Below are positions 36,361 to 36,691 of a DNA stretch of 64,000 nucleotides, one piece after another. The stretch's first letter is position 1. Each line of letters starts with the position of its first letter. Below the pieces are notes generated by a model. It was not told the origin of the DNA. It worked only from the letters and a program-made list of their open reading frames with translations, and made no database searches. Position numbers and translations under genes: made by a program. Source of the stretch: an uncultured Gammaproteobacteria bacterium (GTDB lineage: Bacteria; Pseudomonadota; Gammaproteobacteria; Magnimaribacterales; Magnimaribacteraceae); contig CAJWPI010000004.1 of the NCBI GenBank assembly GCA_913045055.1, positions 1 through 64,000 on the forward strand. Reading direction: 5' to 3'.

Positions 36361-36390
36361 AAAACAAAAAAGCCCTGCTTTCACAGGGCT
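36361..36390 (-). terminator. Intrinsic terminator closing the intergenic RNA unit
   Basis: On the minus strand AGCCCTG-TGAAAG-CAGGGCT forms a perfect seven-base GC-rich stem with a six-base loop, followed directly by TTTTTGTTTT. It lies 78 bases before the DUF839 start codon, so it would stop minus-strand transcription before that gene. Confidence 0.85.
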
Positions 36391-36405
36391 CTTTTGAGAA
36401 GAGTA

Positions 36406-36427
36406 TCTCAACTACTTCTCAACTACT
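36406..36427. repeat. Tandem direct repeat of 11 bases
   Basis: TCTCAACTACT occurs twice in immediate tandem inside the candidate RNA unit, just upstream (minus sense) of its terminator. Only two copies are present. Confidence 0.8.
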
Positions 36428-36636
36428 GAATATAATCTTGATCAGCAGTCGGAATCGGGTTTACCCCGTGTCAGAAGGTAACTCCTGTCATTCCTGCTAA
36501 TAAATAAATACTAATTTGGATCACCTCCTTTCAAGGGTAAAGGCCAACCCAACTATTGATCCCCCTCTTTTAAATCAACGTGGGACATGAGCCATCAGAA
36601 TATCAACTTTTGTGGAACACCCCAAGTAATATTTAT

Positions 36637-36673
36637 AAAAAAAAGAGCAGGGAATCACCAAGATTTCCTACTC
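36637..36673 (-). terminator. Intrinsic terminator of the TonB receptor gene
   Basis: Stem of twelve positions (36645-36656 with 36662-36673, one C-A mismatch and one G-U pair) with a five-base loop, followed on the minus strand by eight consecutive T. It lies 19 bases after the receptor stop codon. Confidence 0.85.
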
Positions 36674-36691
36674 TCTTTTAAAAAGAATTAT

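Follow-up and report, generated by a model that had tools for sequence, protein, structure and literature searches.

In Escherichia coli, the start codons AUU and AUC are discriminated against by IF3, and UGA-C represents a weak stop context. Dual-function small RNAs of the SgrS type encode a peptide. The translational riboswitches preQ1-I and SAM-II carry an H-type pseudoknot at the Shine-Dalgarno (SD) sequence. In Staphylococcus aureus, AUU and AUA starts are combined with conserved extended SDs and reach approximately 10% (up to 30%) of the expression obtained with AUG; these non-AUG starts are used and regulated (PMC13009471). Repression of a non-canonical start by IF3 is reported for Streptomyces (PMC5472188). 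The locus described here combines an extended SD with a non-AUG start in a small, folded RNA. It is located between a TonB-receptor gene and a PhoX-like gene in the window, i.e. the whole stretch of 64 kb that was analysed.

Complementarity to the 16S rRNA tail

The motif AAGGAGGTGATCCAA was read directly on the minus strand (36530-36516) and is the sole exact copy in the window. The first-pass annotation had described it as a 15-base perfect complement of the 16S rRNA 3' tail. The motif is real at this position, and 14 of its 15 bases pair with the tail found in relatives. The organism's own 16S gene, proposed for this comparison, was searched for and is absent from the 1.49-Mb genome assembly. 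Relatives within this family and order have the tail CTGGATCACCTCCTT, i.e. ...GGCTGGATCACCTCCTT, and in family f3 it ends with ...CCTCCTAA. The antisense sequences of these ends are AAGGAGGTGATCCAGCC and, in the f3 version, TAGGAGGTGATCCAGCC. A universal 16S 3' primer-site pattern was unmatched in the near-complete f4 genomes G033, G030 and G027, one mismatch being allowed; in these genomes, the end of the 16S gene may have diverged or be lacking.

36517..36530, minus strand: extreme Shine-Dalgarno site AAGGAGGTGATCCA, a 14-nt complement of the relatives' 16S 3' tail

Both the rarity and the strength of the site had been judged correctly at first sight. The 14-mer is expected by chance approximately 0.0003 times per window and 0.006 times per genome. 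The longest match to the SD consensus is 3-6 nt in 61 of the 62 window ORFs of at least 100 aa and 8 nt in the remaining one. The 13-mer core AAGGAGGTGATCC has no second copy in the 1.49-Mb assembly. In genome G005, AAGGAGGTGATCC recurs at a place other than the 16S gene (L095; G005:C1:443964-443975, minus), where the conserved RNA context is apparently missing. Free variation of the motif among close relatives, raised in the first-pass annotation as an argument against a function, was checked in 76 copies, all of them covariance-model finds except the NORP90 copy (L177) from a pattern scan. The 10-mer GGAGGTGRTC is invariant (76/76), its sole variable base being R (A or G); the variant GGAGGTGATC occurs in 39/76 and GGAGGTGGTC in 37/76. 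Both A and G pair with the U of the 16S tail, and each of the 76 copies retains at least 11 contiguous pairs with it (G-U allowed). Such A/G-only variation with retained pairing is predicted by selection for 16S pairing.

An origin as a fragment of a 16S rRNA gene or as a chance match has a vanishingly small probability. The motif is near-identical to the 16S end read in antisense, yet the likeness stops after 14 bases with AAT in place of GCC (the window reads AAGGAGGTGATCCAAAT against the relatives' AAGGAGGTGATCCAGCC). In addition, it occupies one conserved place per genome with covarying flanks. The 14-base limit, the conservation and the chance figure of ~3e-4 per window refute this origin.

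Distribution among SAR86 genomes

The genomes compared are mostly draft assemblies. The intergenic block was matched once per genome in 30 of 41 related genomes. A covariance model built from 26 copies detected the RNA, once per genome, in 108 of 151 SAR86-order genomes, among them 35 of the 40 with a completeness of at least 90%. A laxer search of four of the five near-complete genomes without a match gave weak scores only, in two of them. On the class sample outside SAR86, the model yielded one weak match only (G391), which is protein-coding-like by sequence. A strict pattern (SD, ATT/ATC, 14 codons, TGA) had no match in ~365 other gammaproteobacterial genomes. When 84,980 species were scanned with a pattern, 113 stretches were returned; the matches listed are titled SAR86 or unclassified gammaproteobacteria, except for one Bacteroidia record without the frame. 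G391 and the pattern matches L206, L280 and G228 were rejected as unrelated or protein-coding.

NORP90, a record titled SAR86, carries a divergent copy on the minus strand (L177:1950-2260), with 47% GC around the locus. This copy possesses the SD, an ATT start, 14 codons encoding the peptide INIYSIKGASSYFI, a TGA and a pseudoknot-like match of CAGGG with CCCTG. From this copy, the RNA family may be older than SAR86. Comparison of the window region with Rfam 15 at permissive E-values gave sub-threshold, chance-level matches only, and seven relatives at gathering thresholds showed only tRNAs elsewhere in the loci. Phage records had no match except one short chance stretch. A description of the SAR86 RNA was sought in the literature and none was found. 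It may be among the putative small RNAs of an ocean survey published in 2009 (Shi et al., Nature 459:266; cited in PMC13414033). The anatomy of the RNA is near certain from comparative sequence analysis, and it is predicted to be an undescribed stand-alone gene, present once per genome in most SAR86 bacteria.

Predicted transcription unit and neighbouring genes

36640..36680, minus strand: terminator-like hairpin and T8 after the upstream TonB-receptor gene, read directly; separates the TonB gene from the RNA gene
36597..36625, minus strand: promoter-like boxes TTGGGG (36625-36620) and TATTCT (36602-36597) with a 17-nt spacer; position conserved in relatives
36365..36590, minus strand: predicted stand-alone small RNA gene of ~225 nt; conserved block with promoter-like box and terminator, single copy across the order
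36396..36420, minus strand: extra hairpin with the loop GUUGAGAUAC at 36412-36403; seen in the alignment, families f1 and f3 only
36365..36396, minus strand: intrinsic terminator, CAAAAGAGCCCTGTGAAAGCAGGGCTTTTTTG and T run; from the terminator scan

The conserved box and the terminator predict an RNA of ~225 nt (36590-36365), which would start at approximately 36590. In family f2, a perfect TATAAT occupies the place of the second promoter-like box. A generic promoter scan did not pick the boxes in the window, and a generic terminator scan on the minus strand did not list the hairpin behind the TonB-receptor gene. Terminator-like hairpins are located at most 175 nt past the stop in 120/120 distinct copies. 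The GUUGAGAUAC hairpin shares its distribution, f1 and f3 but not f2 or f4, with CsrA.

The neighbouring genes differ in relatives; consequently, the association with TonB receptors suggested in the first-pass annotation was abandoned. The gene that starts 100-164 nt downstream in f2 and f4 encodes an EamA-like transporter, identified as such by visual reading of the sequence. A terminator-like hairpin in every distinct copy, a conserved -10 box and variable neighbours are the features of an autonomous unit, as which the gene is predicted to function.

Conserved fold

36548..36584, minus strand: hairpin P1, CCCA (36584-36581) with TGGG (36551-36548) and TTGAT (36578-36574) with ATCAA (36560-36556); covariation
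36533..36567, minus strand: pseudoknot, P1 loop GAGGG (36567-36563) with CCCTT (36537-36533); ends 2 nt before AAGGAGG
36451..36494, minus strand: three-way junction P3/P4/P5; covariation
36494-36490 with 36455-36451, minus strand: P3, GGAAT/ATTCC; 96.2% of cells paired, two-sided changes
36487-36482 with 36477-36472, minus strand: P4, CAGGAG/CTTCTG; 81.5% of cells paired
36468-36465 with 36459-36456, minus strand: P5, CGGG/CCCG; 62.6% of cells paired, weaker

Among 75 distinct sequences, two-sided changes were found at all 12 pairs of P1, whose two segments are paired in 84.5% and 89.5% of the cells. The pseudoknot is paired in 86.1% of the cells, its outer pair alternating between GC, AU, CG and GU. 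An alignment-free search recovered many variants of the pseudoknot, e.g. CAGGG/CCCTG, GAGGG/CCCTC and CAGAGAG/TTCTCTG. P4 is replaced in f4.

In the 75 distinct aligned copies, P1, the pseudoknot, P3, P4 and P5 together are paired in 83.8% of the cells versus 68.5% after shuffling. Double-change cells amount to 410 versus 166 (sd 11), and the covariation score to 0.450 versus 0.203; for both measures, 0/500 shuffles were as high. When the pairing partner is shifted by a single column, the covariation score falls to 0.115-0.137. The alignment underlying these values was fitted to the model and is thus biased toward its structure; an earlier MAFFT alignment based on sequence only gave the same fold. 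The arms CCTTT/AAAGG and TTGG/CCAA, thought initially to hide the motif in a hairpin, are not part of the conserved fold, in which an upstream hairpin with its pseudoknot and a downstream three-way junction covary. A closing helix P0 (GUC with CGRC) was plausible in 25 sequences and was rejected, as it fails in diverse f2 copies carrying CGCC or CGTC.

Start codon, reading frame and stop

36471..36515, minus strand: 14-codon ORF ISIYLLAGMTGVTF, ATT start at 36515-36513 and TGA stop at 36473-36471; comparative evidence

The first codon is ATT in 71/76 and ATC in 5/76 copies; ATG occurs in none. It is located 7-9 nt past GGAGG, 8 nt in the window. The first-pass annotation had rightly noted that a standard start codon is missing. 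An ATT does sit at the normal distance; the ATT proposed at 36511-36509 was misplaced, as the codon directly abuts the motif. Both suggestions made at that stage, an RNA element that binds ribosomes and translation initiated at a rare ATT, are consistent with the comparative evidence. Long SD, proper spacing and conserved ATT/ATC start are those of an mRNA with an extended SD and a non-AUG start, to which type the RNA would belong. SAR86 probably makes use of non-AUG initiation, since the apparent start of infC (IF3) is ATA in f1 (L163, L165) and ATT/ATA in f2 (L166); in f3 (L162, L164) it is ATG. The N-terminal domain of IF3 (PF05198) was unmatched in two single-contig SAR86 genomes, G046 and G033, which may reflect divergence or loss.

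In a set of 121 distinct copies, partly derived from a pattern requiring ATT, the frame comprises 14 codons in 120 copies and 13 in one (in-frame loss). The stop is TGA in 121/121, followed by C in 120. Early stops are absent from all 62 distinct ORFs, while in column shuffles 23.7 ORFs on average have one (lowest of 2000: 13). Of the 62, 47 are closed in frame +1 and 61 in frame +2. As column shuffling ignores relatedness, the stop count was repeated on a tree. There, a stop would arise from ~5.7% of the single changes to observed letters; the 223 inferred changes should thus have included ~12.6 of this kind, and 0 were seen. These changes distribute as 76/71/76 over the codon positions, with no overall excess at the third. 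Third-base freedom is found mainly at codons 1, 3, 9 and 11. The residues I1, I3 and G11 change chiefly at the third base, positions 5, 6, 7, 9, 10 and 12 vary freely, and a C-terminal F is present in 54/72. As the three codon positions evolve at equal rates, selection seems to act on translation as such more than on the peptide. Frame, start and stop seem to be protected more than the peptide, which appears weakly constrained; given the pattern at I1, I3 and G11, it could nevertheless matter.

UGA-C overlaps with helix P4, and its conservation may therefore be structural. A second SD-like motif, GGRG, is present inside the frame (36471-36486, minus strand, in the window) and precedes UGA-C by 5-11 nt in most copies. 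This arrangement is reminiscent of the prfB site, but a conserved slippery codon is absent in the SAR86 RNA. A prfB-like +1 frameshift (internal GGAGG followed by UGAC) was considered and appears unlikely from the sequences as read, since neither the slippery codon nor a downstream frame is conserved. Readthrough of UGA or selenocysteine insertion was discarded as well, the in-frame residues past the stop failing to align by eye.

Proposed function and alternatives

The favoured reading, with a probability of roughly 0.5, is a ribosome-capturing, stand-alone, pseudoknotted RNA, which would bind the 30S subunit tightly, start and stop slowly in a factor-sensitive manner, and serve as a trap or a sensor. 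The conservation of the gene and of its fold, SD, reading frame, start and stop, as read from the aligned sequences, is near certain. Transcription and ribosome loading are presumed, with the residence time of the ribosome, not the peptide, as the proposed output. The near-complete complement of the 16S tail, offered just after the pseudoknot, would bind the 30S subunit very tightly. Initiation would then take place at AUU or AUC, which IF3 normally rejects. One ribosome, for which there is room, would read 14 codons through the three-way junction and terminate at UGA-C, a slow stop context served by RF2 only. Refolding of the RNA, its decay or the holding of 30S subunits are the outcomes considered. 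With a tight SD, a rejected start and a slow stop, the outcome would depend on the availability of ribosomes and factors, which suggests a ribosome trap or sensor. A new class of RNA, i.e. an order-wide trap or sensor that measures free 30S, IF3 or RF2 or parks ribosomes, is proposed tentatively and is itself somewhat doubtful.

A micropeptide gene, in which the 14-residue product fM/I-S-I-x-x-x-S-G-x-x-G-x-A-F is active and the fold and AUU merely meter its synthesis, is unlikely. Frame and length are kept, I1, I3 and G11 are conserved with third-base freedom, and the terminal F is frequent; against it stand the even distribution of changes over the codon positions, the six freely varying residues and the finding that the strongest constraint lies on RNA pairs and SD. 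The opposite extreme, a purely non-coding RNA whose anti-SD duplex sequesters 30S subunits without any translation, would account for the extreme and invariant 16S-tail complement with its A/G wobble, the non-AUG start and the strong fold. Since it leaves the open frame, the lengths in multiples of three, the start restricted to ATT/ATC and the stop restricted to UGA to be explained, it is considered quite improbable. The pseudoknot beside the SD, the short ORF and the terminator are leader-like and, with the EamA-like transporter downstream in f2 and f4, would fit a cis-acting riboswitch or attenuator governing the next gene via the terminator. In 9/19 contexts, though, and likewise beside the distant NORP90 copy, the next gene is convergent; it is PhoX-like in the window and unrelated in others, no downstream gene being common to all. 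Synteny thus rules out attenuation of TonB, PhoX or EamA genes as a general function, and a cis-leader of any kind is very unlikely.

Several GGA motifs in the RNA recall CsrB/RsmZ-like sponges of CsrA, and, among the genomes tested, those of f1 and f3 encode CsrA, the source genome included. CsrA (PF02599) was not found in G028 and G046 (f2) or in G033 and G030 (f4), yet three of these four (G028, G046, G033) possess the RNA. The conservation reaches well past GGA to the 10-mer GGAGGTGRTC, and a CsrA sponge is accordingly given hardly any weight. CsrA or other proteins may be partners of the RNA in f1 and f3.

Significance and comparison with described systems

SAR86 bacteria are among the most abundant bacteria of the surface ocean and have streamlined genomes. 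To our knowledge, no laboratory genetics exist for this group. Being structured, single-copy and retained by nearly all near-complete genomes of such streamlined bacteria, the RNA is probably important to SAR86. If confirmed, it would represent a case in which natural selection favours a start codon rejected by ribosomes, paired with an almost maximal SD, and a natural system for the trade-off between SD strength and start-codon checking. The existence of the RNA is a prediction that can be addressed in existing ocean metatranscriptomes.

The last strand of the SAR86 pseudoknot abuts the SD as in preQ1-I and SAM-II riboswitches, but the RNA lacks a common downstream target gene and its 14-nt SD stays outside the pseudoknot. 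With tmRNA (RF00023) it shares a pseudoknot just ahead of a short frame and a predicted association with the ribosome; tRNA-like ends were not seen in the SAR86 RNA. A substitute for tmRNA was rejected, as the tmRNA model matches a separate locus in each near-complete SAR86 genome tested. Like dual-function RNAs of the SgrS type, it is sRNA-sized and stand-alone, with a promoter-like box, a terminator and a short ORF; it differs in its weakly constrained peptide, extreme SD and AUU start. In the mode of initiation it resembles infC (IF3) and the S. aureus genes cvfC1 (AUU) and ccpN (AUA), which likewise combine a strong extended SD with a conserved non-canonical start and control of the IF3 type (PMC13009471). 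These are full protein genes, whereas in SAR86 a fixed frame of 14 codons is embedded in a pseudoknotted RNA that covaries and ends in a terminator of its own.
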